A DNA stretch of 39,267 nt, taken from Arenimonas sp. GTDB taxonomy: Bacteria; Pseudomonadota; Gammaproteobacteria; Xanthomonadales; Xanthomonadaceae. Position 1 is the stretch's first letter. Each line of letters begins with the position of its first letter. The position numbers were made by a program, and so were the translations under genes. Where the stretch lies: the NCBI RefSeq assembly GCF_022842045.1, contig NZ_JALHQI010000024.1, positions 1 to 39,267 of the forward strand. Reading direction: 5' to 3'. The notes beneath the pieces are model-generated. The model was not told where the DNA came from. It searched no databases and saw nothing but the letters and a program-made list of their open reading frames with translations. This document shows, in pieces, positions 19,277-38,522 of the stretch.

Positions 19277-19353
19277 GCGCCTGTAGCTCAGCCGGATAGA
19301 GTAGTGGCTTCCGAAGCCATTGGTCGGGGGTTCGAATCCCTCCAGGCGCGCCA
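19277..19353 (+). tRNA. tRNA-Arg (anticodon CCG)
   Basis: A complete 77-base cloverleaf with encoded CCA. The acceptor GCGCCTG pairs perfectly with CAGGCGC; the discriminator is G. The anticodon stem GTGGC/GCCAT holds loop TTCCGAA, giving anticodon CCG, which reads CGG. The T-arm is GGGGGTTCGAATCCCTC-like, with the standard TTCGAAT loop. It is the attachment-site type gene for the integrated element(s) that follow, and directly follows a 90-base spacer after the broken copy. Confidence 0.93.
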
Positions 19354-19425
19354 AGACCCCTGTGACAAATCTGTGCCGTGGCTGTGCCAAGTTCTTCCTG
19401 GCAACCCGGCCGCGTTGAGTAAAAG
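19354..19425 (+). repeat. Element end flank, copy 1 (downstream of tRNA)
   Basis: This stretch starts right after the tRNA CCA and shares with 22055-22126 the block CCCTGTGACAAATCTGTGCC, then GCTGTGCCAAGT and TTGAGTAAAA at equal spacing. The repeated CTGTGmC words look like integrase arm-type sites (inference). Confidence 0.7.
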
Positions 19426-20051: not shown

Positions 20052-20122
20052 TTCGGCCCCTCTAGCCGCTGGGCAAGCCTGTCGCCGGTGATTCGAGCCA
20101 AACCCTGGAAAACAGCCTGTGT

Positions 20123-20157
20123 TGTGTTTTCTTTGTAAACAGCATATAAGCTGTTTT
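20123..20157 (+). promoter_or_regulatory. hipBA promoter with palindromic operator
   Basis: TTGTGT (20123-20128) and TATAAG (20146-20151) are 17 bases apart. A perfect 7-base palindrome, AAACAGC and GCTGTTT with a 6-base spacer (20138-20157), covers the -10 box. A further AAAACAGC half-site is at 20110-20117. HipB-type antitoxins autorepress through such palindromes, so this is the expected operator. Confidence 0.6.
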
Positions 20158-20175
20158 CAAGCAATACAGACCAGG

Positions 20176-20454
20176 ATGCGTGAAGTGAGCCAGTACGCCG
20201 TGCGGACCGCCGAACAACTGCCCGCCCTGCTCAAAGCCTTCCGCAAGCAGGCGGGGCTGACCCAGGGACAGGTCGCCATGAGCCTGGGCGTCACGCAACA
20301 GACGCTCTCCGCCATGGAGCGCAACGCCCAGAAAGTGAACGCCGAGCGGCTGCTCCAACTGCTGGGCATCCTTGGCGTGGAGATGGTGCTGCAGCCGCGC
20401 GGCCTCGAAACGGGCGCGGCTCGACCCACCCCCCAAGGGAACGCCGGGTGGTAA
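20176..20454 (+). CDS. hipB: HipB-like XRE antitoxin
   Basis: A 92-residue helix-turn-helix protein. The XRE domain spans about residues 15-68 with GLTQGQVAMSLGVTQQTLSAMERN as its core, and the ending LLQLLGILGVEMVLQPRG is typical of HipB. The ATG at 20176 is chosen because it leaves the promoter palindrome upstream untranslated. Its stop overlaps the hipA GTG start by seven bases. It should neutralise HipA and autorepress the operon. Confidence 0.87.
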   Translation: MREVSQYAVRTAEQLPALLKAFRKQAGLTQGQVAMSLGVTQQTLSAMERNAQKVNAERLLQLLGILGVEMVLQPRGLETGAARPTPQGNAGW

Positions 20455-21818
20455 CGGCCGTCACCGGCAGGAAGTCGCGCCGAAAGGCGCTGGGCCTGTG
20501 GATGAACGGCGATTTCGTCGGCACCTGGCGGATGGACGCCGGGTCCGAGGACATCCTCGAGTACCACGCCAGCTGGCAAGGCTCGCCGCAAGGCCGCCCC
20601 CTGTCGCTCTCCCTGCCTTTCACGCCAGGGGCAAACCTGCATCGCGGGGACGTTGTCCGGGCGTACTTCGAGAACCTGCTGCCGGACAGCCAGGACATTC
20701 GTGCGCGCGCCGCGCGTCGCTTTCGCGCCAGATCCACCCAGGCCTTCGACCTGCTCGCCGAGATTGGAAGGGACTGCGTCGGTGCGCTGCAGATCCTGCC
20801 CGACGGCATGGCGCCCGGCGATGTGCGCACCCTCGACGCGAGCCCGCTCGACGAGGCCCAGGTGGCCGCAATCCTGCGCGGCACCGTGGCACCGCCGGCC
20901 ATGGCGGGCGCCGCGCCACAGGACGACGATGACTTCCGGATCTCCATCGCCGGGGCCCAGGAGAAGACCGCCCTGTCGTGGATCGACGGCCGCTGGTGCC
21001 TGCCGCACGGTTCAACGCCGACCACGCACATCCTGAAGTTGCCGATGGGACTGGTCGGCAACATGAAGCTGGACCTGAGCCATTCCATCGAGAACGAATG
21101 GCTGTGCTCGCGGATCCTCGCGGCCTACGGACTGCCGGTCGCCGAATGCGAACCGCTGCGGTTCGAGGACATGAAGGTCCTCTCGGTCCGGCGCTTCGAC
21201 CGCGCGTGGCTCGACGGACCTTCGGGCAGATGGCTGGCTCGACTGCCGCAAGAAGATTTCTGCCAGGCGACCGGCACGCCCGCGGCCCTCAAGTACGAAT
21301 CGGACGGGGGCCCGGGGATCGAGCGCGTCATGGGCTTGCTCGCCACCTCCGAATCTCCCCAGCGGGATCGACGCGTTTTCTTCCTGGCCCAGCTTCTATT
21401 CTGGATGCTGCGTGCGCCTGACGGCCACGCCAAGAACTTCAGCCTGTTCATTCGCCCACAAGGCGCTTATGGGCTGACGCCGCTGTACGACGTGATGTCG
21501 GCCTGGCCGCTGATCGGCGAGGGGCCCGGGAAGTTGTCAGAGCACAAGATCCGGCTGGCGATGGCGATCCGAACCACCAATGCCCACTGGAAGATGAAGG
21601 AAATCCATCGCCGGCACTGGCTTGCGCTCGGCAAGCGGTTCGGCGTGCTGGATGACGAAGGACGGGAAATGGAAGCGATCCTCGGCGACCTCATCGCGCG
21701 AACGCCCCGGGTGGTGGCTGACCTCGAAGCCGGACTGCCGGCGAACTTTCCCGAGCACGTTGCCAACTCGGTACTTCGGGGATTGCAGCAAGCGGCGAAC
21801 CAGCTGGGCCAAGGCTGA
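20448..21818 (+). CDS. hipA: HipA-like Ser/Thr kinase toxin
   Basis: A 456-residue HipA-family kinase. The N-terminal domain (LWMNGDFVGTWRMDAG) is followed by the kinase part with ISIAGAQEKTALSW (regulatory P-loop-like segment), the ATP-binding THILKLPMG, the catalytic loop DGHAKNFSLF near residue 325 and the metal-binding YDVMSA. In E. coli HipA phosphorylates glutamyl-tRNA synthetase and induces dormancy; the target here is not known. It begins with GTG inside the end of hipB. All catalytic elements seem intact. High GC, unlike the defence island that follows. Confidence 0.88.
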   Translation: MVTAVTGRKSRRKALGLWMNGDFVGTWRMDAGSEDILEYHASWQGSPQGRPLSLSLPFTPGANLHRGDVVRAYFENLLPDSQDIRARAARRFRARSTQAFDLLAEIGRDCVGALQILPDGMAPGDVRTLDASPLDEAQVAAILRGTVAPPAMAGAAPQDDDDFRISIAGAQEKTALSWIDGRWCLPHGSTPTTHILKLPMGLVGNMKLDLSHSIENEWLCSRILAAYGLPVAECEPLRFEDMKVLSVRRFDRAWLDGPSGRWLARLPQEDFCQATGTPAALKYESDGGPGIERVMGLLATSESPQRDRRVFFLAQLLFWMLRAPDGHAKNFSLFIRPQGAYGLTPLYDVMSAWPLIGEGPGKLSEHKIRLAMAIRTTNAHWKMKEIHRRHWLALGKRFGVLDDEGREMEAILGDLIARTPRVVADLEAGLPANFPEHVANSVLRGLQQAANQLGQG

Positions 21819-22010: not shown

Positions 22011-22054
22011 TCCGAAGGCAGGGGTCACAGGTTCGAATCCTGTCGGGCGCGCCA
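22011..22054 (+). pseudogene. tRNA-Arg 3' half (att-site remnant)
   Basis: TCCGAAG followed by 37 bases, the same length as the 3' half of the complete tRNA, with T-loop TTCGAATC, stem ACAGG/CCTGT, acceptor CGGGCGC and encoded CCA. It resembles other gammaproteobacterial tRNA-Arg(CCG) 3' halves more than the local copy does, and its GGCAG anticodon-stem strand cannot pair with the local 5' half. It therefore arrived with an integrated element, not from the host gene. Confidence 0.8.
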
Positions 22055-22126
22055 ATCCCCCTGTGACAAATCTGTGCCCTTGCTGTGCCAAGTCCCGGGG
22101 CACGTGCCCATCGGCATTGAGTAAAA
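22055..22126 (+). repeat. Element end flank, copy 2
   Basis: This stretch starts right after the tRNA 3' half at 22054 and repeats the flank seen at 19354-19425, including the 20-base block CCCTGTGACAAATCTGTGCC. It marks the left end of a second related element, probably the one that carries the defence island. Confidence 0.7.
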
Positions 22127-22571: not shown

Positions 22572-23081
22572 CTACTTGAGTCTTGCCAACGAAATCAGTT
22601 CTTGAACTACAACACGGAGGTGCGGAGCGAGCTTCTCAATGTCCTTACGGTGCGCCGTGAAGTACCTGCTATGCGCGGACTTATCACCAACTTCCTTTAG
22701 CTCCGGCAGGGCTTTCTTGACCGGCCTACTAAGATTGAATGACGGTTCGGCGGAAAGTCTTGTAATCAGCTCGCCCAATAGAAAGAAGTCGCCGTTCGCA
22801 TCTTTGATCTTCATTGCCAAATTGTTGCGTTCAAAGGTTTCGATTATGAGAGTTTCAACCAAGCGCCGAACCATAACCGCCGAAGCATCGTACCAACCGT
22901 GCTCGTAGCTACCGTTAATCTGATGGACGATGCGTTCGAGATAAGGCCGCGTGCCGCGCACGAGCGCGAAGTAGACGATGTGATCTTCCGAACTGGGGGC
23001 ACCCTCCTCTGGAGGTGGGTTCCTGGCACGAACCCCATCTCGCAGCTCTCGGATGCCAAGCAGCATCGCTTCAATATCCAT
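22572..23081 (-). CDS. DUF4145/HEPN-like protein
   Basis: A 169-residue, mostly helical protein. The middle (SAVMVRRLVETLIIETFER) and the later VGDKSAHSRYFTAHRKDIEKL resemble DUF4145-type domains of the HEPN group, which often occur in defence loci. An R-x4-H pattern (Arg139 to His144) agrees with the HEPN ribonuclease motif Rx4-6H, but the neighbouring His could be the family's structural one. The ATG at 23081 has a weak ribosome-binding site. It starts 8 bases after the DUF5343 stop, so the two are co-transcribed. It is probably the last gene of the defence cluster. Confidence 0.65.
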   Translation of the reverse strand: MDIEAMLLGIRELRDGVRARNPPPEEGAPSSEDHIVYFALVRGTRPYLERIVHQINGSYEHGWYDASAVMVRRLVETLIIETFERNNLAMKIKDANGDFFLLGELITRLSAEPSFNLSRPVKKALPELKEVGDKSAHSRYFTAHRKDIEKLAPHLRVVVQELISLARLK

Positions 23082-23089
23082 CCGACTGA

Positions 23090-23791
23090 TCAGCCCTTAA
23101 TTGGTAGGTGCTTCGCCATACTCTCGAAGATTCTGTCAATCTGCTCGGGCGTGCTGTCCGGCGAGATGTGGATCTGAATGTCCACATGGAGGTTCGGGCT
23201 GAAGGCTCGCCTTTGACCACCGCCCCCGCCAGCGTGACCATGACGCTCTTCTGCTTCAGACATGACATCAGCAGCCTTCGCAGGCTTTGGTTCAGTTGCC
23301 GGCTTTTTGGCCTTGACGACCCGTGGAGCGGTTGCCTTTTGCTTAGGTGGCCCGTTCTCCTTGCCCTTCGAAGGATCGCCTTCCAGAAGCAATAGGTAGA
23401 GCGCAGTGTAAGCGCTGACCGCCGACTCTCCCTGTCGCGTGTCGCGCGCGAACCAGTTGGAAACGTCTTTGAACTTGGCGTCAGGCGTATGAAACAGATC
23501 CCTAATTTCCTGCGGGTAGGTCGCCACCAAGATCTTCTCGCATGCGGCGGCGTAGGTCTCGTCGTCCCGCCACTCAAATGCTAGGTCGCTCGGCTTTCCC
23601 GCCTCGTCAATCAAGCCGAGCTGCTTAAGCGGCGGAACGAGGTTTGCAGCGGAGGCCGTGCCGATGTTCAGGGCGCCTGCTATGTAAGTAGCGGTAACCT
23701 CCGCCGGTGGTTTCTGCCTAAACTTTTCGCGCAAGGAGAACCAGTTTGCACGCGGTAATTTCGGATAACTCTTCTTCTTACTCTCAGCCAT
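23090..23791 (-). CDS. DUF5343 protein
   Basis: A 233-residue protein. Residues about 8-135 match the DUF5343 pattern: WFSLREKFRQKPPAEVTATYIAG, a winged-helix-like SAANLVPPLKQLGLIDEAGKPSD, then YAAACEKILVATYPQEIRDLF and VSAYTALYLLLLEGD. The C-terminal part is Lys/Pro/Ala-rich, then HGHAGGGGGQRR, then a final strand-helix segment NLHVDIQIHISPDSTPEQIDRIFESMAKHL. Two ATGs are close (23797 and 23791); GGGGA lies at normal distance only from the second. The domain is a probable DNA/protein-binding winged helix found in defence or mobile loci; function not established. Confidence 0.75.
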   Translation of the reverse strand: MAESKKKSYPKLPRANWFSLREKFRQKPPAEVTATYIAGALNIGTASAANLVPPLKQLGLIDEAGKPSDLAFEWRDDETYAAACEKILVATYPQEIRDLFHTPDAKFKDVSNWFARDTRQGESAVSAYTALYLLLLEGDPSKGKENGPPKQKATAPRVVKAKKPATEPKPAKAADVMSEAEERHGHAGGGGGQRRAFSPNLHVDIQIHISPDSTPEQIDRIFESMAKHLPIKG

Positions 23792-23985
23792 CTTCATTCC
23801 CCACTGCCGTAGCCGTCACTGAAGGCCTTTCTCCTGTAAGTCAGGGGTATCGGCCCGCCATTTTCTAACACCCCGAGGCGCCGGGGCCTAGTCCTAAGGA
23901 ACTCCAAGCGTTCAGATCACCGCCGCTCAGCGACTATCGTCATTATGCATTGAGCGGATCAGTATCATGCCGCCCCTCATACTCG

Positions 23986-24573
23986 TTACTTCTGGAAGTA
24001 GTACTCATCGAGATTGAAGAAAGAATCAACAACCAGCGGAACTTCTTGGTTCAGACCCGAAGAAAAAGCTCCAACCACTACCTCACACCCCGAATGCATG
24101 AGCTCCTGATACAGCGGTATAAAGTCACCGTCACCGCTAAGTAAGACAATCTTTTGCGCTTGATCTCGGTAGGCGGCGCGGAGCGCCTCAACGGAGATTG
24201 CGGTATCGCAGATGCTTTCTTTTCTCGTTTTGGATGCTCGCTTTCTTACTTGTGGCACAAGCCGCCCTTCGGCAGTGCGAAACATTTGCGTCTTCTGATA
24301 GAGCGCGATCACCTCGGCCCGACACTTGAATCGCACCGCGGAGATGGCACCTCTTGCCGCGTCCAACGCAGCTTGGTCCCCAACTACAGATGTGTGGTAG
24401 GAAATGCGAAGAATGTCCCAGAGCCAACCACCGAGGACATCCGGGTTCCATACAAAGAAGTCTCCAACGACAACATTCCCCGTTGCCGCCGCTCGGCCAT
24501 CGGCAATCATCTGCTTGTAGCGTGATGAAAGGTTCTCGCCATCAACTAATACAAGCGTCTTTCCGATTGGCAT
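23986..24573 (-). CDS. NYN-domain (LabA/PIN-like) nuclease
   Basis: A 195-residue NYN-domain protein, the PIN-like fold of metal-dependent RNases. Acidic residues expected at the active site are seen: Asp11 in LVLVDGEN, the Asp in ESICDTAISVE, and the two in LLSGDGDFIPLYQEL near residue 148. The end (VVVGAFSSGLNQEVPLVVDSFFNLDEYYF) is typical of LabA-type members. The ATG at 24573 has GAGGG seven bases upstream and is preferred over the non-ATG start 24 bases further up. It lies 112 bases after the AIPR gene and about 190 before DUF5343, all on the same strand. Likely an RNA-cleaving accessory effector (inference). Confidence 0.8.
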   Translation of the reverse strand: MPIGKTLVLVDGENLSSRYKQMIADGRAAATGNVVVGDFFVWNPDVLGGWLWDILRISYHTSVVGDQAALDAARGAISAVRFKCRAEVIALYQKTQMFRTAEGRLVPQVRKRASKTRKESICDTAISVEALRAAYRDQAQKIVLLSGDGDFIPLYQELMHSGCEVVVGAFSSGLNQEVPLVVDSFFNLDEYYFQK

Positions 24574-24685
24574 CAATAATCCCTCTGCTGAGGTCAATTA
24601 GTCGAACAGCGCACCAGATTCTCGGCTAGCTGAGGTTGCTGGAAATAAATGGACAATCCTGATGATCATTCCTTCCAAGCATTCT

Positions 24686-26740
24686 TCAAGATTCGCGAAG
24701 GCGCTCGAGAACGCCAATGGCGTGCTTACACTGCAGTTCACTGGGAAGCCTGGTTGGCATTGACGCACACACTTGAAGTATCTGCTGATCCTTAGGCGAA
24801 AGCATCTTCCCTGCTACACCGCGAGCGAGAACCTCACTCCAGAACTCCGCCCCCAACCTGACCACCTCAGCTTGAGCTGATATCCCATCAACCTCGCGCT
24901 TCTTTTTGCGTTCATCCCGCTCGCTCGTTCTCGCGGTTTCTACCAGCGTAAGGCAACTGTCAAAGCTGTCCCCGTAGTCGAGCGTCCGGCTCTGCAGAGC
25001 ACTCCAACATGCTTGTTGCTTGGCCCATTCAGACATGTTTCTCATGCCTGACACAGGATGGGTGATCACCTCTTGAGCAGCAGCGGCAGCGGCAAGCAGC
25101 GCTTGAACCAAAGCTTCAGGGACAGCCTGCTTTCTGGCGACCGTATCAAGATCAAGAACCTGCCCGTCCCGCGTTGCGTCGTTGAACACCTTCGCCATTG
25201 CATAGGTGACGATGTTCGCCCGATAGCCGCCTTGGTACCAAGACTGCTTCGGGATCTCGACCTCCAGCTTGCGGAAGATGATGGCTTTGGCAACCAAGCG
25301 TCGGTACCAGAGCTCGTCATACCGATCTTCGTGCTTTGACCAAGCTTCGCCGATCTCTCTCGCGAAATCAGCAAAGTTCTTCTGAGCGCCGCGCGAAACG
25401 ATGTGCGGCCTACCGGTAGCGGAGTACTCAAACTTTGCCAGGTCGGTTTTGCTGAACAGCTGCGCTTTGGGGAACTCCAGTTCAAACTTTTTGGCTTGAG
25501 CGGGAGACAGACGTGTCCTGGCATTAAGGAACTGACCGCGGGAACGCTCGTAAAACCACTTGCTATCATGCCGCGTGCCTTCCCTGGCGGCAAAAATGAC
25601 ACGCCGCGAGAATTGCTCGATACGGATATGGAAAGGATGGTTTGAGAAGAAGTCTGCTGCATTCACCTTATTCTGAGTGTTCGCATACTCCGAGATCCGC
25701 GGCACGATGTCCTCAGATCGCTCTGCAGGAACAACTGTCAGCTTCATTTGTACGAATATTTGCGCCAGCTGTTCTTTTGCTGACTTCAAGGCTGCGTGAA
25801 TAGAACCCGTGGTCTGCGCTCCATTGACAATCTGTAGATTACTGACCGAAGAAACAGCCAGGCCCTCCTTGGATCTCACACACACAACGGCATCGGCTGT
25901 CGCCGACAGGCCATTGTTGTATGGGAAGAACAGCTCTGGCTCCTCCTTTATCGTCTTCTGGATACCCTTGTTGGTCTTGGCCCTCGCCTGCAGGAAAGAC
26001 CGAACATTCGCCTCAAGGAGGCGCGCGCCCCACCGATCGTAGATAGCAGCAAGTTGTTGTCCGGGCATAATCAGCAGATAGCTTTCGAGGCCGGCTCCAT
26101 GCTGCGATGCCTTGAGTGCCGGCAATGACGCACCGAAGTCTTTCTCGAAGTCGATGACAAGCTCTTCTCGAGCCTGCCCGGATCGATCGAATCGCTCAAA
26201 CCGTGCCAGGTCCCAGACCGACCATGTAATTGGAATATCGCCTGGCTCTGCCAGCTTGACCGTGTCGTCCCGGCCAATGTATTTCCGGTTAGATATGAGT
26301 ATGAGTTTTACTTTTGAGACTTGGGACCAGGTTGATATGACCAGATCGGACACCTGAAACGCGGGATTGACCTCATTCAAAGAGTCACGGAAATCCTCCG
26401 TTCGAGCTTTCTTTAGAAACCGAACAAGCGGATTTAGTATCGCCGGCACATCACTCTTTCCAAAGGTCTGGACAGCGTCAGAGTCGACGAAGTCACAAAC
26501 GATCAGGCCAAGGACGCCCTCGCTGTCACGGGGATCCCCAGCATATCCGTCGACCCTGAGCTTTTGGCCTCCTTCCCCGGCCTCATAGAACGCACGGTCA
26601 GCCACCTCCAGCTCTCCGGCCTCGGTGAGCCTTTCAGTCATCCGATCAAAAAAGGCCTCGACCATCATGACGCCACTGGCATCCGCTTCACGTCGAATGT
26701 CTGCCATCAGGCTCTCGTGATACTCCTCAATCTCACTCAT
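24686..26740 (-). CDS. AIPR-family protein (abortive infection/phage resistance)
   Basis: A 684-residue protein. The AIPR core covers about residues 235-520: RLLEANVRSFLQAR, NKGIQKTIKEEPELFFPYNNGLSAT, QIVNGAQTTGSIHAAL and later EGTRHDSKWFYERSRGQF. An N-terminal restriction-endonuclease-like segment is possible (DGYAGDPRDSEGVLGLIVCDF). The start at 26740 (MSEIEEYHESL) overlaps the upstream stop by one base (TGATG). AIPR proteins are known from phage-resistance loci and from neighbourhoods of GHKL/Z1 restriction genes; the enzymatic role is not proven. Base composition is lower in GC than the chromosome. Confidence 0.85.
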   Translation of the reverse strand: MSEIEEYHESLMADIRREADASGVMMVEAFFDRMTERLTEAGELEVADRAFYEAGEGGQKLRVDGYAGDPRDSEGVLGLIVCDFVDSDAVQTFGKSDVPAILNPLVRFLKKARTEDFRDSLNEVNPAFQVSDLVISTWSQVSKVKLILISNRKYIGRDDTVKLAEPGDIPITWSVWDLARFERFDRSGQAREELVIDFEKDFGASLPALKASQHGAGLESYLLIMPGQQLAAIYDRWGARLLEANVRSFLQARAKTNKGIQKTIKEEPELFFPYNNGLSATADAVVCVRSKEGLAVSSVSNLQIVNGAQTTGSIHAALKSAKEQLAQIFVQMKLTVVPAERSEDIVPRISEYANTQNKVNAADFFSNHPFHIRIEQFSRRVIFAAREGTRHDSKWFYERSRGQFLNARTRLSPAQAKKFELEFPKAQLFSKTDLAKFEYSATGRPHIVSRGAQKNFADFAREIGEAWSKHEDRYDELWYRRLVAKAIIFRKLEVEIPKQSWYQGGYRANIVTYAMAKVFNDATRDGQVLDLDTVARKQAVPEALVQALLAAAAAAQEVITHPVSGMRNMSEWAKQQACWSALQSRTLDYGDSFDSCLTLVETARTSERDERKKKREVDGISAQAEVVRLGAEFWSEVLARGVAGKMLSPKDQQILQVCASMPTRLPSELQCKHAIGVLERLRES

Positions 26741-27705
26741 CAGTCGACGTCCTTGATCAGACTTCGCATAGTCTCCCACTCCACAGTGAATGGTTTGCAG
26801 GCGGAGAGTTCTATCGCATACGTCACGCCCGACACACCAAGTGGCACCGGCGCAGCGATTCTGGGGAAATCACTTTCTACTTGGTAAAATTCAGGCTTCG
26901 ACACAATCCACCGCCATGGGGAATAGTCATCCATCGCATCAAATCCCGCGTCAGCCAGGCGAAGATCCCACTCCTGTATGAGAGATGGATCAAACTCTTC
27001 CAACTCAGCCTTTACGACTGACACGAAATCTGGAAGCGTCTTACCATGCGGTTGCTGAACCTTGTCAACCGCGAGGACTGCGAGCCAGAGTCTGCGATCC
27101 GGAACATCGGCCAGCTGATGCTCATTTGATATTTTTACGAATGGCTGGGACGCGCCACGCCGAGCTTTTACCTCAAGACAGTCCGCCGTCATCTCAAAGT
27201 CTTTCGGGGCGCCTGATGGTCCTGTCCAAGCTGCTATCGCCGCTTTCGGTCCGATTGCCGCCATCAGTATCTTTAGTACTTCAATCTCACCAATGAGGCC
27301 TTTCTGTTCCTCTTCTGAAAGTAGATCAAGCTTCCCGCCACGGAGCAGATAGTGCCAACGAAAGGTTCGACCGATGGCACGTTCGACAGCCTCCGCCTCA
27401 GAAGCCCCCTGCTCTCCTGCGTTGATGACGTCCCTGCAGAGCGTTTCAAACAGCTCGAGCTGACTTCCTTCTTTAAGCCGTATATAGAGGATCGGTCCAC
27501 CAGGCAGTGTCTGGAACCGTATCTCAAGGCTTTTTAGCTTTGGCAGATCCGGAAGGGGCTTTGGAAGGCTGGCGAGCTGAAGCACGAGTGCCACATCGGC
27601 GCGGGGCATGACAGCCCAGAACCAGCCCCATTTAGCTGCCGCATCGACACGACGTGTGTCGATAGCGCCGGACTCGAGACCGGACCAAGGCGTATCACTC
27701 AGCAT
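26740..27705 (-). CDS. PD-(D/E)XK motif protein (DUF4420)
   Basis: A 321-residue protein. The nuclease core is at about residues 130-180: EEEQKGLIGEIEVLKILMA (helix with conserved Glu), WTGPSGAPKDFEM with the catalytic Asp, and ADCLEVKARRG carrying the E-x-K. This is the DUF4420 arrangement of the PD-(D/E)XK superfamily. The ATG at 27705 (MLSDTPWSGL) has GGAGG about eight bases upstream, and overlaps the end of the Z1 gene by 11 bases. It is predicted to cut DNA for the Z1/GHKL system. Confidence 0.85.
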   Translation of the reverse strand: MLSDTPWSGLESGAIDTRRVDAAAKWGWFWAVMPRADVALVLQLASLPKPLPDLPKLKSLEIRFQTLPGGPILYIRLKEGSQLELFETLCRDVINAGEQGASEAEAVERAIGRTFRWHYLLRGGKLDLLSEEEQKGLIGEIEVLKILMAAIGPKAAIAAWTGPSGAPKDFEMTADCLEVKARRGASQPFVKISNEHQLADVPDRRLWLAVLAVDKVQQPHGKTLPDFVSVVKAELEEFDPSLIQEWDLRLADAGFDAMDDYSPWRWIVSKPEFYQVESDFPRIAAPVPLGVSGVTYAIELSACKPFTVEWETMRSLIKDVD

Positions 27706-30433
27706 CGCCACGCGCCTCCTCCTCTGCTTCGTCCTCGCCAAACATCTCGCGCATCCGGATCGTGTTCACAACATACTCGACAGTGCCGCCCTGGACCTCA
27801 GATGGCGGGAAGCAGATGCTCCAAGCGAGAACGATGGTTGGTAACTTCTTCTTGAGGGAGTCGTCCTCAACGGTTGGCTCAACGAAGCGCAGGATCAGCA
27901 GGGGGCGTCTGCCGGGAATTTCGCAGAAAATGCGCGGAGGCAAGGTTTCCGGAACCGGTTTGCCGTCCAGAACCCTCTGCTTGCGAAATTCAGACGTCGC
28001 TGTCTCAATCTGCGCTTCGGAAAGGCCGATGCGCTCATCGCCAGGAGAGCCGACTCTTCGGCTAGTTCCGCTGATTGCTAGGACGCCTTGCCGAAGATCT
28101 GCGTCTCCAACAGATCGACCGTAAGCCTTCATCTCAAGCTGACCCAGTGCAATGGGACTTGCTCCTGACTTCACTGCACTGGCAAACAAGACATCCCAAG
28201 AAGCCAACTCTGTGTCAGCACGGGCATCAATGTAGTCATTGATAAGGCGCGTATCAGTCAGGGGATCAGCAGCGTCGGCGCGGAACGCCCGAAGAAAATC
28301 GCGCACCAAGGTGACCGGCACCGATCGGAATAATGTTCCTCTAGTTGGATGCTCGGGAACAATCCCGCACCCGTTGATAGATTCAGCCAACCACTCGCCA
28401 GCTTGCTGATTCAACCTGATCTGATCGGCGTCAGCTCGTATCCTGGTCGTCTCAACCATCTTTCCTGCCAAACCCACCTTTACCGGATACTCTCTGCCGC
28501 TGCCCATCTTGTTCCGCGCCGTCACAATAAGCGACTCCGGATGACTCCGGACAGCGAGGCCAAATTGCTCCGGGGTCGCCTTTGCCAGTTCCATTCGCTT
28601 GAGTTGTGCTTGAAGATCTTCCATCGCTTCATGGATATGCGAGTACCAACCAACTCCGTCCGCTGGCATCCATACTCGGCAAAGGTCCTCGTAGCCGGGG
28701 CGGTACCCGAACCACCGTCCCATTTGCATGAGCGTGTCGTACATCACGGAGTTTCGTAGGAAGTAGCTGACGGTCAACCCCTCAAGCGTAAGGCCACGAG
28801 AAAGTGAGAAACCGCCAATAGCTATGACGGTAACGCCGTGCTCCCCAGGCTGATCGTAGTCGAGCGGCTGCGACCGTTTGGAGGCATTCACCTCGACAAC
28901 CCGCGCAGCAACAAGCACCTCGTGCAATCGCCCCTGCACAGCCGACCACGCAACATCCTGCGCGCTGGCGTACTCTTCTTGCCAAACGTCGTGAAGCGCT
29001 CTTATTTCCGGATTATTCAACGCGTCGCGTCCCTTTCCTCCCTCAACCGCGACCGCATCTCGCATGCGCCCAACTACATCCAGCACCTTTGACTTGATGC
29101 GGCCTTGTACATCTGTGAATCGGGAGGCATTGATAAGCATGGACGCATGCGCGGCCTGTTGGCCACGGGCATTGCGCAATGCGCGAGCAACCACGAAAGT
29201 TCGAACTGCTTGAGCAAGGCTTTCAGGAATCGTATCGACCGGGTGGTCAATCTTGTGCTTCATTGGCAGGACGTCTTCATTGTCCTTAATGAGACGAATG
29301 TGTTTTTCCCGAGCGTCGATGAAGACCTTTTGTGCCCCAAAGTAGTTGGATGGGGCATCCAGGCCAATGATGAAGTGCCGCGGGAATAGATCCTGCTTGA
29401 GCGCTTCGTCATCAGTATCCGGGTCGATGAAAATGTTCGCGAACGGCGTGGCGGTGTAGCCCACGTAACAGCTCCGGTGAAACAGCGAAAGAAGCTCGCG
29501 GATCTGTCCGTTGATTCGCGTAATCTCGTCCTTCGCGTAAGCCGTGTTGATCGACGCGTTGTCTGCCTCGTCGTCGATCAGAAGCATAGGCTGGCTCACC
29601 ATTTGCGTACTTTGGTGGGCCGAGTGCTCCTTGAGCCACTCGAGGAGATTCTTGAGCGTGCTTGAGTTCTTTTTGATTACCAGAACCACAGGTACGTTGT
29701 ACTGCGCGATCTGGCTTGTATTGGTTGTGGCTGTTGCCTTATTGAAGTCCCGGAGCGTATTTGTCAGCGACACTGGGAATTCACGCTGGTCAAACGTACC
29801 AACACCAATCAGTTTCTGGCGCTGAGCCTTGTTCGCATGTGCCAACCGGCCGGTATCTCGACCGATGAACCCCTCATCTATTCTTGCCTGCGTCTGGTTG
29901 CGTAGATTGTTGTGGATACCCGCAATCACAACGATCAATCGGTAGCCGGCGTCTGCCGCCTTGCAGATAAGTCCCGTGTAGTTGGCGGTTTTTCCACTCT
30001 GCACGTTTCCAACGACCATTCCACGACGGCTCCATTGACTCATATTGCGCGGATCACCCAGTCGATCCAGCACGCGGTCAGTAACCTCGTCCGTCGCATC
30101 AATAACTGTTTTTGGCAACCCGCTTAGGTTTAGCAACCTTCGGTACCGGCTCCAATAGAAATCGCCAATCTCGCCATTGATCCTGGCGTCATGCAACCAC
30201 GGACGGAAGTCCTTGGCGTCTATAATCGCGCCAAAACCCATGCTGATTCCGTGCTTTTCTTCGATTAGGCGCGCGAGCTCCTCCGCTTCTGCGTCGCTGA
30301 CCTTATCTGAGAACATCGGCGTCTCGCGCAACTGTTTCACGATTTCGCGAATCGACACAGCAGTGTGTGGCCCTGGCTGGGACGCCATATACATCGACGC
30401 CATGCCTTCAAGGCTGCTCAGTAGTGGATTCAC
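27695..30433 (-). CDS. Z1-domain superfamily-II helicase-like protein
   Basis: A 912-residue protein. The N-terminal half has a P-loop NTPase with Walker A GNVQSGKTANYTGL (near residue 143) and Walker B LLIDDEADNAS (near 286), followed by YVGYTATPFANI, the motif III region. The Z1 domain proper occupies the middle to C-terminal part, with VIAIGGFSLSRGLTLEG (near 543) and QMGRWFGYRPGY (near 574), like helicase motifs V and VI. The GTG start at 30433 is set by GGAGGAG six bases upstream and by the GTGA overlap with the ATPase stop. It is likely the ATP-driven DNA translocase or remodeller of the system. Confidence 0.9.
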   Translation of the reverse strand: MNPLLSSLEGMASMYMASQPGPHTAVSIREIVKQLRETPMFSDKVSDAEAEELARLIEEKHGISMGFGAIIDAKDFRPWLHDARINGEIGDFYWSRYRRLLNLSGLPKTVIDATDEVTDRVLDRLGDPRNMSQWSRRGMVVGNVQSGKTANYTGLICKAADAGYRLIVVIAGIHNNLRNQTQARIDEGFIGRDTGRLAHANKAQRQKLIGVGTFDQREFPVSLTNTLRDFNKATATTNTSQIAQYNVPVVLVIKKNSSTLKNLLEWLKEHSAHQSTQMVSQPMLLIDDEADNASINTAYAKDEITRINGQIRELLSLFHRSCYVGYTATPFANIFIDPDTDDEALKQDLFPRHFIIGLDAPSNYFGAQKVFIDAREKHIRLIKDNEDVLPMKHKIDHPVDTIPESLAQAVRTFVVARALRNARGQQAAHASMLINASRFTDVQGRIKSKVLDVVGRMRDAVAVEGGKGRDALNNPEIRALHDVWQEEYASAQDVAWSAVQGRLHEVLVAARVVEVNASKRSQPLDYDQPGEHGVTVIAIGGFSLSRGLTLEGLTVSYFLRNSVMYDTLMQMGRWFGYRPGYEDLCRVWMPADGVGWYSHIHEAMEDLQAQLKRMELAKATPEQFGLAVRSHPESLIVTARNKMGSGREYPVKVGLAGKMVETTRIRADADQIRLNQQAGEWLAESINGCGIVPEHPTRGTLFRSVPVTLVRDFLRAFRADAADPLTDTRLINDYIDARADTELASWDVLFASAVKSGASPIALGQLEMKAYGRSVGDADLRQGVLAISGTSRRVGSPGDERIGLSEAQIETATSEFRKQRVLDGKPVPETLPPRIFCEIPGRRPLLILRFVEPTVEDDSLKKKLPTIVLAWSICFPPSEVQGGTVEYVVNTIRMREMFGEDEAEEEARGDAE

Positions 30434-31944
30434 AGCATCTCCTCCTTCGCGACGATCGTCGCGATCATTCGCTGCGTGTCTTCCCACGAAGACCTGAAGG
30501 GATCCACATCCTTCATAAGGGCCGAGATTTCCTTGACGTCTTTTCCAGCACCCTTCAAAAGCTTCAAGGTTGAGTGAACCGCTTGCATTAGCGTGTCCTC
30601 GTCTACTCTCCCAGGTACAATTTTCTCTGGCGAACCCGCCATATCCGCATGCAAGGTTTCGATTGGGAGCGAGGCTCCGACCAGTTCAATACAGTTGTAG
30701 AATCCGCGCCGCAGTGCCTCGGGAAGGCTTTCCGCGAAATCAGAAAAAGCAGGGTGCTCCGGGTTGGGCTGGTAACGTATCTGTCCGTCGGCTTGGACTC
30801 GATGCCACAGCGGAAGTCGCTCTTGGTCCACGAGCTTCTGGCCGCTCTTGGTATAGGTCCGCTTCGACCCATGCTGGATTCGCTCGATAACCTTTTTCAG
30901 GCGATCGCGGACAATCGGCGGTAGCTGGGCAGACGATTTTTTGACGTCAATTTTCCAGCTTGCGTCCATGCTGTTTGGTATGTCTATTCTCACCCGCGAC
31001 AATTTCGTGAGCTCAGACTGCCTGCATAGGCCGAACCATGTGCCATGGATGATCAGACGTTTCCCGCGATACAGATAGAAGCCTTGGGACTTCAGATGTC
31101 CCTCAGGTCCTCCCAAGTCGTCCCAGTCGGAGGTGCTCATTTTTTTATGGTGCGGCAATGTGAAGCTTTGAATGGCAATGGCACCGTTGCCTAGCACAAC
31201 AACCTCTTCGGGGTCGCGGATTGTTGCTGCATGGTTGATTGCAAACGGGTCTAGCGGCTTCAGCAGCCGCCCATTCAAGCGCACCTGCAACGGCTTACTG
31301 CTTTCCATGAAGCGATGAAAGACCAGCCGAAGATGGCGCTCTGTTTCAGCGATTCTTTGATTGATAACCTCGGCTCTTTTGGCGACATCTTGGGATATTC
31401 CGCCGGAAAGACGATCCATCTTCTCCCAGACCACCAACGTCCCATCGGACTTAAGCCGTTCAATTTCCGGGACATTCGATATTTCGTCCGGAAGCTGAAC
31501 CGTCCACTCGTTTCGCTCGGCGACGTCATCCAAATCCCATACCGCCGCCGTGGTCTTGCCAGCTTTTCTGGATACCACTGTCAGACGTCGACATTGGGAG
31601 AAGCTTGCGCTCTTCAAGCCTAGGCCAAATCGACCAAGATCCGGCTCGTCTCGCGTAGCAAGCGGGTTCTTGCTGCCGGGTCGCATTGCCGCCACCAGTT
31701 CCGACTCGGTCATCCCTTCGCCATTATCGATGATGGCGATATGTGGGTATTGGGCGGAGGCGTCTGTGAAGACGTCAACCATCTGGGCTTTCGCCGTAAT
31801 GGAGTTGTCGATGATGTCTGATATTGCGGTCTCGAGCGAATAGCCAATATCCCGGAGCCCCTCAATGAGCGCGGCTGCATGGGGCGTTGCATCTGCACGT
31901 CGAATCAAACTGGCTGTTGGTAGTTCTGTAATTCGCTGGATCAC
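30430..31944 (-). CDS. GHKL ATPase (MORC/MutL-like)
   Basis: A 504-residue ATPase of the GHKL fold. The N box is AISDIIDNSITA (about residues 39-50), G1 is IIDNGEGM (about 71-78) and G2 is GRFGLGLKSAS (about 103-113). After the ATPase fold comes an S5-like region (residues about 230-350) and a unique C-terminal helical part (SLPEALRRGFYNCIELVG). It resembles the paraMORC/MutL-like ATPases of restriction gene clusters. The start is GTG at 31944 with GGAG nine bases upstream. A possible regulator half-site lies 49-61 bases further upstream. It heads the four-gene overlapping operon. Confidence 0.9.
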   Translation of the reverse strand: MIQRITELPTASLIRRADATPHAAALIEGLRDIGYSLETAISDIIDNSITAKAQMVDVFTDASAQYPHIAIIDNGEGMTESELVAAMRPGSKNPLATRDEPDLGRFGLGLKSASFSQCRRLTVVSRKAGKTTAAVWDLDDVAERNEWTVQLPDEISNVPEIERLKSDGTLVVWEKMDRLSGGISQDVAKRAEVINQRIAETERHLRLVFHRFMESSKPLQVRLNGRLLKPLDPFAINHAATIRDPEEVVVLGNGAIAIQSFTLPHHKKMSTSDWDDLGGPEGHLKSQGFYLYRGKRLIIHGTWFGLCRQSELTKLSRVRIDIPNSMDASWKIDVKKSSAQLPPIVRDRLKKVIERIQHGSKRTYTKSGQKLVDQERLPLWHRVQADGQIRYQPNPEHPAFSDFAESLPEALRRGFYNCIELVGASLPIETLHADMAGSPEKIVPGRVDEDTLMQAVHSTLKLLKGAGKDVKEISALMKDVDPFRSSWEDTQRMIATIVAKEEML

Positions 31945-32043
31945 TTCCGTTTACTCCAATTTTTCAACCTGTGCAGATGCAAAAACGCGAAGCTGATCAC
32001 TCGACACAGATTTTTGCCTCGCAAGGTTCAGCGAATGTTCGCC
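31945..32043 (-). promoter_or_regulatory. Probable defence-operon promoter region with operator half-site
   Basis: The 99-base gap between the methyltransferase stop and the ATPase start is the only sizeable gap ahead of the four-gene operon. At 31993-32005 it holds TGATCACTCGACA, which repeats the half-site of the inverted repeat at 34552-34582 with one difference. No clean -35/-10 pair can be named. Confidence 0.4.
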
Positions 32044-33648
32044 TTACTTCGAATTCGACAGGACACGATGAACCACTCTCGCAATCTGTCTGGCCACCAT
32101 CGGTGGTACCGCGTTTCCTACCTGGACAAACTGGTCAGTTCGGGGGCCGAGGAAGAGGTAATCGTCAGGGAACGTCTGCAGCCTCGCTGCCTCACGCACA
32201 CTGAGGCTCCTGCATTGGGATGCGTCCCAATGGATAAAGGCGTGCCCGTCTTTCGAGAGATGGCTCGTGATTGTGTTTGACGGCTGACCTTTCCGCTGTA
32301 CCCGGAATCGGTCGGCGAATGATCCCGCGGACCAGCTTTCATGATCTGGTGCCAGCTCAACTGGAAAATCACGACTGGTCGGGGAACGCCCCTCCGCCTC
32401 TGCGAACGCGGCAACGAACATGTACCTAGCGAGGTCTGATGGCATATGCCCCCTCGTGTCATGATTCAGAACAACCCCAGGATTCAGCCCCCTCAGCTCG
32501 CCTGCGAGCGTTGACACGCGACCGGGAGCATACTTGGTCGAGCTTCTTGGAAGATTTGCCGCAGGGACAGTCGTTTGGAGCACCTGCGCCACGGCAGGCA
32601 TCGTCTGCTTGATTGCCCTGATGACTCTTTTACGCTCGCGCTCCATGGCGTCGTACCACCTTTTGGAATCATCGAACTCACGGCTCACCCCACTGCGAAG
32701 CGAGGGCAGCCCTGCCAGCGCGTGCTCGATTCTATTCCGGGTTGCCGATGAATCTAAGCCAGAAAGTTTCGCAACGAACGGTTTCGCATAGTCCCTCCTC
32801 ACACCCATGATGATCACACGGTGCCTCGCCTGGGGGACGCCGTGTTCTTCGCAGCGGATGATGAAGGCTGAAGGGTCGTTGGCGACGAGGTCCTCCGTTC
32901 TCTCCATTCCATCCGGTACATGGATGGGTAGCAGTGCGTACTGTTCCGTGTCGGCGGAGGAGACTGCGGCACCCAGTGCGGCTGAAGGGTTCTTCAGATC
33001 CCGCTGGATGGCGGCGAACATTTCCTGATTACCCACCTTGGACGTGAGGATGCCCTTTACATTCTCCATGATGAAGACTGCGGGCTTGAACGTGGCGAGG
33101 ATCGCGAGGTACTGCTTGTAAAGGAAGTGACGCGGATCACCTTTTGTGCGGAATTCGGCGACCTTTTTCTGTCTCGCCCTGCCCACCAGCGAGTACGCCT
33201 GGCATGGGGGTCCACCGATGAGGACAAGTTCATCGTATTCGGATTTGACAGCTTCGATTCTGCGATAGAGCTCTTGGTTGTCCTCCGACTTCCCGAGCGT
33301 AAGGTTGAGGGCCTCAAGCTCGGCTTCTTTCCACAGCGATCTCCATCGGCCTTCTTCGAATCTCGCCCGAGGGGTTTCAGCCTTGCCTGCTGCGACATCC
33401 CGGAGGTAGTCCCAGTATTCTTCCGGAATTTGACCCTCGTTTCGCTGAAGGAGACGGTAGAAGGCCCTCAGCCGGAGCGTTGCGTGGGCTGACCGCTCCA
33501 TTTCCGCGGAGACAGCCAGTTCAAATGGGTAGGTACCGCTGCCTGGTTTCCGTTCATAACTGCTGAAGCCTTCGCCAAGACCGCCTGGGCCTGCGAAGAT
33601 GTCGATGACCCCGAACTGGGCGCGCGTTCCTGCTCGTGCTGCGGACAA
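32044..33648 (-). CDS. DNA (cytosine-5)-methyltransferase
   Basis: A 534-residue C5 methyltransferase. Motif I is IDIFAGPGGLGEGF (near residue 15), motif IV with the catalytic Cys is GGPPCQAYSLVGR (near 144), motif VI is IMENVKGI (near 193), motif VIII is QARHRVIIMGVR, and motif X is VQVGNAVPPMVA close to the C-terminus. All motifs are present and in order, so it should be active; the target-recognition region lies at about 280-380 and its site is unknown. The only in-frame start is TTG at 33648, 18 bases from the divergent vsr. It is expected to mark host DNA for the restriction cluster. Confidence 0.93.
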   Translation of the reverse strand: MSAARAGTRAQFGVIDIFAGPGGLGEGFSSYERKPGSGTYPFELAVSAEMERSAHATLRLRAFYRLLQRNEGQIPEEYWDYLRDVAAGKAETPRARFEEGRWRSLWKEAELEALNLTLGKSEDNQELYRRIEAVKSEYDELVLIGGPPCQAYSLVGRARQKKVAEFRTKGDPRHFLYKQYLAILATFKPAVFIMENVKGILTSKVGNQEMFAAIQRDLKNPSAALGAAVSSADTEQYALLPIHVPDGMERTEDLVANDPSAFIIRCEEHGVPQARHRVIIMGVRRDYAKPFVAKLSGLDSSATRNRIEHALAGLPSLRSGVSREFDDSKRWYDAMERERKRVIRAIKQTMPAVAQVLQTTVPAANLPRSSTKYAPGRVSTLAGELRGLNPGVVLNHDTRGHMPSDLARYMFVAAFAEAEGRSPTSRDFPVELAPDHESWSAGSFADRFRVQRKGQPSNTITSHLSKDGHAFIHWDASQCRSLSVREAARLQTFPDDYLFLGPRTDQFVQVGNAVPPMVARQIARVVHRVLSNSK

Positions 33649-33666
33649 TGTCTGGACTCTTGCTAT

Positions 33667-34149
33667 ATGGTTGACGTGATGAGTGCCGAAAGGCGCTCTG
33701 CATTGATGTCACGCATCAAGGGGAAGAACACGGCCCCTGAGGTGTTTGTTCGCAAGTACCTTTGGCGCGCTGGTATGCGTTACAGGCTCCACACGAGCGG
33801 TCTTCCCGGCAAACCGGACCTGGTGCTGAAGCGATGGGACGCTGTCGTGTTCGTCAACGGCTGTTTCTGGCACCGGCATTCGGGCTGCCCCTTGTTTCGT
33901 CTTCCCAAGACCCGCAGTGAGTTCTGGGACCAGAAACTCCGTGCCAACCAGATTCGGGACCTTAAGGCGATCGCCGAACTTTCTGGCGCTGGGTGGCGCG
34001 TATGCGTTGTCTGGGAATGCGCACTTCGTGCCGCTCCTGAACAGAGCTGCAGCCATTTGGTGGATTGGATTCGGCGGGGCGATACCAACGCCGCACTGGA
34101 GGCAGTAGGGCAATCCGCCCAGTTGCACCCCCTGGCTCCTCACGCCTGA
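33667..34149 (+). CDS. vsr: Very short patch repair endonuclease
   Basis: A 160-residue Vsr endonuclease that nicks at T:G mismatches produced by deamination of 5-methylcytosine. It shows MSRIKGKNTAPEVFVRKYLW, catalytic Asp51 in GLPGKPDLVL, and the zinc/His region NGCFWHRHSGCPLF with Cys66, His69, His71 and Cys74, followed by TRSEFWDQKLRAN and RVCVVWECALR. This matches E. coli Vsr closely in order. A second ATG at 33679 (MSAERR) is possible. It is divergent from and paired with the C5 methyltransferase, as expected for a repair partner. Confidence 0.93.
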   Translation: MVDVMSAERRSALMSRIKGKNTAPEVFVRKYLWRAGMRYRLHTSGLPGKPDLVLKRWDAVVFVNGCFWHRHSGCPLFRLPKTRSEFWDQKLRANQIRDLKAIAELSGAGWRVCVVWECALRAAPEQSCSHLVDWIRRGDTNAALEAVGQSAQLHPLAPHA

Positions 34150-34231: not shown

Positions 34232-34483
34232 TCACGGACTGATACCCGACCGCTCCGGATCAGTCTCGGCCACGTGTTCCACCAGATCTTCCACCCGACA
34301 GGCAAAGTAGGTGCAGAGTCTGTCCAGGGCGTCGGTTTGAACGTTCGCCCCATGGTGGTTCGCCAGCTTGGACAGCGTCATTCGGTTCAAGCCCGTCGCT
34401 TCAGCGATCTCCTGAATGGTCACGCGCCGCCGCTCCCGGAATTCCAGGTCGGCTATGCGCTCCTTGAGCTTAAACCTTAACAT
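34232..34483 (-). CDS. Small XRE-family regulator
   Basis: An 83-residue Cro/C1-type protein with the helix-turn-helix at about residues 18-60: VTIQEIAEATGLNRMTLSKLANHHGANVQTDALDRLCTYF. The short form without a second domain resembles YozG-like phage regulators. The ATG at 34483 has no clear ribosome-binding site. It is divergent from the excisionase/integrase pair across an AT-rich region with an inverted repeat, so it likely controls those genes and perhaps the defence operon. Confidence 0.85.
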   Translation of the reverse strand: MLRFKLKERIADLEFRERRRVTIQEIAEATGLNRMTLSKLANHHGANVQTDALDRLCTYFACRVEDLVEHVAETDPERSGISP

Positions 34484-37624: not shown

Positions 37625-37650
37625 CTTCCTTTCCGATATGGAGAACCCTC

Positions 37651-37905
37651 ATGACTACCCCCGACGAAAGACGACGCACCCTCGTTCAAGCGGGCGCGTT
37701 CCTGAAGGAGTTGCGCGGCAACGCCGCGCTACCTGAGGCGGTCCGCCAGGAAGCCCATCGGCTGCTGCGCCACTATCCAGGCCTGCGTGAGATCGAACAT
37801 CTCGCCAGGGTTACCCAAGGCGCTTGGGGCGGAAGCCCGCTGGGTGCGGAGCACGATCCTGACTGGCTTCGGGGCTACGCACATGGGGCGCATCAGGGTG
37901 GTTAG
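37651..37905 (+). CDS. BPSL0761-family small protein, full copy
   Basis: An 84-residue protein starting MTTPDERRRTLVQAGAFLKEL, with LPEAVRQEAHRLLRHYPGLREIEHLA, the pattern of the small BPSL0761 family found in integrative elements of Burkholderia and Xanthomonadaceae. The C-terminal DPDWLRGYAHGAHQGG overlaps the next gene. Function unknown. Its first 45 codons are repeated at 38364-38522. Confidence 0.72.
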   Translation: MTTPDERRRTLVQAGAFLKELRGNAALPEAVRQEAHRLLRHYPGLREIEHLARVTQGAWGGSPLGAEHDPDWLRGYAHGAHQGG

Positions 37906-38293: not shown

Positions 38294-38363
38294 GAAGTAG
38301 GCAGGAACCATAGGACGCACTCTACTCAAATCGGATTGGCCGAGCAGCTGGGGCAAGTCACTC

Positions 38364-38522
38364 ATGACGACCCCCGACGAACGACGCCGCGCCCTGGTGC
38401 AAGCTGGCTCCCTCCTAAAGGAGTTGCGCGGCAACGCCGCCCTACCTGAGGCGGTACCCCAGGAATCCCATAGCCTGCTGCGCCACTCCCTCAGTGAGGA
38501 AGAACTCCAAAGCGGCAGCTAG
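38364..38522 (+). CDS. Truncated/diverged BPSL0761-family copy
   Basis: A 52-residue frame MTTPDERRRALVQAGSLLKEL, then LRGNAALPEAVPQESHSLLRH, that repeats the start of the gene at 37651 and then diverges to a short end (SLSEEELQSGS). The copy lacks the rest of the family (EIEHLA, DWLRGYAHG). It is a partial duplicate, possibly still translated. Confidence 0.55.
   Translation: MTTPDERRRALVQAGSLLKELRGNAALPEAVPQESHSLLRHSLSEEELQSGS

Follow-up and report, generated by a model that had tools for sequence, protein, structure and literature searches.

Which function is served by a six-gene locus of Arenimonas sp. (assembly GCF_022842045.1, contig NZ_JALHQI010000024.1), and has its kind been described before? 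The window, which is the whole stretch of 39,267 nucleotides that was analysed, carries a C5 cytosine methyltransferase, a Vsr mismatch endonuclease and a four-gene core. The locus is an anti-virus kit of a previously described kind, located on a mobile island. An earlier note had recognised these genes and considered them a good candidate for a poorly described system; the gene observation was confirmed and the interpretation partly supported.

The core was analysed with Pfam profiles run on 20 window proteins and PADLOC profiles run on the ten proteins around the system. The GHKL ATPase (30430..31944, minus strand, 504 amino acids) matched HATPase_c_3 and presented the S5-domain motif of the MORC family, GhXhhpXXRhl, as GFYLYRGKRLI at residue 288. 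This motif was found in 100 of the 123 aligned sequences and in 6/1364 other open reading frames of at least 300 amino acids. The superfamily 2 (SF2) helicase motif DThhQXuRhFG occurred as DTLMQMGRWFG at 566, and was retained in 102/109 aligned sequences and in 0/1404 background open reading frames. The predicted PD-(D/E)XK nuclease (26740..27705, minus strand, ATG at 27705, 321 amino acids) matched DUF4420, and its residues E140, D169, E178 and K180 (E-D-ExK) were invariant together with Q197 (106/106 sequences). Its AlphaFold model had a mean predicted local distance difference test score (pLDDT) of 92, and the structural search with this model returned no significant match. The AIPR protein (24686..26740, minus strand, ATG at 26740, 684 amino acids) matched AIPR and AIPR_N, with N306, G307, Q309, E398 and R399 kept in all 104 aligned sequences. 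The core gene between the DUF4420 and GHKL genes spans 27695..30433 (minus strand). The Pfam search assigned the GHKL, DUF4420 and AIPR proteins to the families that the earlier note had expected.

The methyltransferase (32044..33648, minus strand, TTG start, 534 amino acids) matched DNA_methylase, and no other C5 methyltransferase gene was found in the draft genome. The divergent Vsr gene (33667..34149, plus strand), also anticipated, matched Pfam Vsr and TIGR00632 (133 bits, cut-off 97.9). The methyltransferase would mark DNA, with Vsr as its putative repair partner, and the four core genes would presumably recognise DNA that lacks the mark and cleave it. Residues 446-479 (32212..32313, minus strand, type A) are the presumed recognition segment of the methyltransferase, by analogy with M.HhaI. 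Six types of this segment, as defined in this analysis and including Dcm-like ones, were paired with cores. The history of the methyltransferase/Vsr cassette differs from that of the core, and the two genes seem to have been swapped independently of the four core genes.

Three candidate targets were considered, none of which was adopted: CCWGG, pointed to by the Dcm-like replacements; GCSGC, pointed to by the NgoAVII-like recognition segment in locus L114; and GCWGC, pointed to by Prevotella intermedia. The Dcm argument is weaker in L071, where the contig begins near GHKL and an upstream methyltransferase could be lost from view, and in L060 and L063, where EcoRII lies next door; for L078, L085 and L150, neighbour comparison and gene listing turned up no EcoRII gene. 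The motifs of DISARM methyltransferases, according to the accessible part of the source, are CCWGG in Bacillus and others in Serratia. Because the candidates disagree and DISARM enzymes vary, no target was assigned to the methyltransferase of the window.

The core could instead act as in DISARM, attacking DNA by its structure or replication state, with 5-methylcytosine (5mC) merely repressing it and the methylated sequence being irrelevant if self DNA has 5mC. We consider this unlikely, although it is favoured by DrmMII being the top PADLOC match of the methyltransferase (286 bits), by the variety of segment types paired with cores, and by the repression of DISARM through methylation, with no specific activating sequence, as described in the accessible part of PMC9142583. 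Clearly less probable is abortive infection as the first response, in which the core would sense phage activity and AIPR or DUF4420 would harm the cell, leaving the methyltransferase and Vsr only to shield the host or control expression: DUF4420 retains its E-D-ExK residues throughout, the near-constant C5 methyltransferase better matches self-marking, and no ExK-like residue pair in the AIPR N-domain reached 95% conservation. That the methyltransferase and Vsr are orphans or a separate adjoining type II restriction system, leaving a system of four genes only, is very improbable, since the EcoRII-type endonuclease genes next to them in L060, L063 and L071 and the differing histories of cassette and core are set against a linkage of 49/50 across loci that their record titles place in several phyla, a methyltransferase upstream of the core on the same strand in 35/67 genome loci, and no type II endonuclease other than Vsr among the Pfam-scanned window proteins.

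Once the counted families are set aside, each neighbour cluster in the 6 kb around the core was present in at most 11 of the 102 core loci; the most frequent one resembles a serine recombinase. An NYN-domain gene (23986-24597, minus strand) lies ~90 bases past AIPR, with no relative found beside other cores, and an XRE gene occupies 34232-34483; both were rejected as system parts, as each was present in the window only among the loci searched, by single-sequence searches that are weak for short proteins. Downstream, a DUF5343 gene (23090-23797, minus strand; PADLOC candidate PDC-M34A) and a DUF4145 gene (22572-23081, minus strand) may together make up another small defence module of the island. 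A helix-turn-helix and HipA-like kinase pair (20119-21818, plus strand), likely a toxin-antitoxin module, is flanked by two tRNA-derived direct repeats of 83 nt (83%; 19310-19392 and 22011-22093). These repeats, probable integration sites, comprise a tRNA 3' end and the following conserved stretch, and their core has two near copies on contig C32. A 127-nt direct repeat (87% identity; 37648-37774 and 38361-38487) lies close to the contig end.

Among known systems, MZA (mzaABCDE) has homologues of B, C, D and E here in the same order, with PADLOC scores of 278 (MzaB, the GHKL ATPase), 437 (MzaC), 54 (MzaD, the DUF4420 nuclease) and 234 bits (MzaE, the AIPR protein). All four fell far under the NCBIfam equivalog cut-offs (score/cut-off for B, C, D and E: 334/850, 537/1500, 101/420 and 317/1050 bits), and the sigma-like MzaA is absent: the window gave no match, and the top-scoring protein from the rest of the genome (453 bits, cut-off 800) is probably an ordinary sigma factor. 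CglI/NgoAVII (PMC4267653) has a PLD nuclease R-protein with a B3 domain, whereas the nuclease here is DUF4420. Vsr, present in this locus, is not named for the putative 'Type II' system in the accessible part of the paper that describes it (Miller et al. 2022, PMC9523054). Pin25611FIII of P. intermedia (PMC5608340) was placed among the closest known systems. DISARM shares the DrmMII-like methyltransferase and an SF2 motor, but the nuclease here is of another kind; the DrmA helicase and DrmB (DUF1998) had no match among the ten proteins around the system, the remaining genome not being searched. MORC operon type 3, a prediction from gene neighbourhoods (Iyer et al. 2008, PMC2292703), differed in no tested feature: the locus combines the MORC-family S5-domain motif in its GHKL protein, an SF2 helicase with DThhQXuRhFG and a neighbouring nuclease with E-D-ExK.
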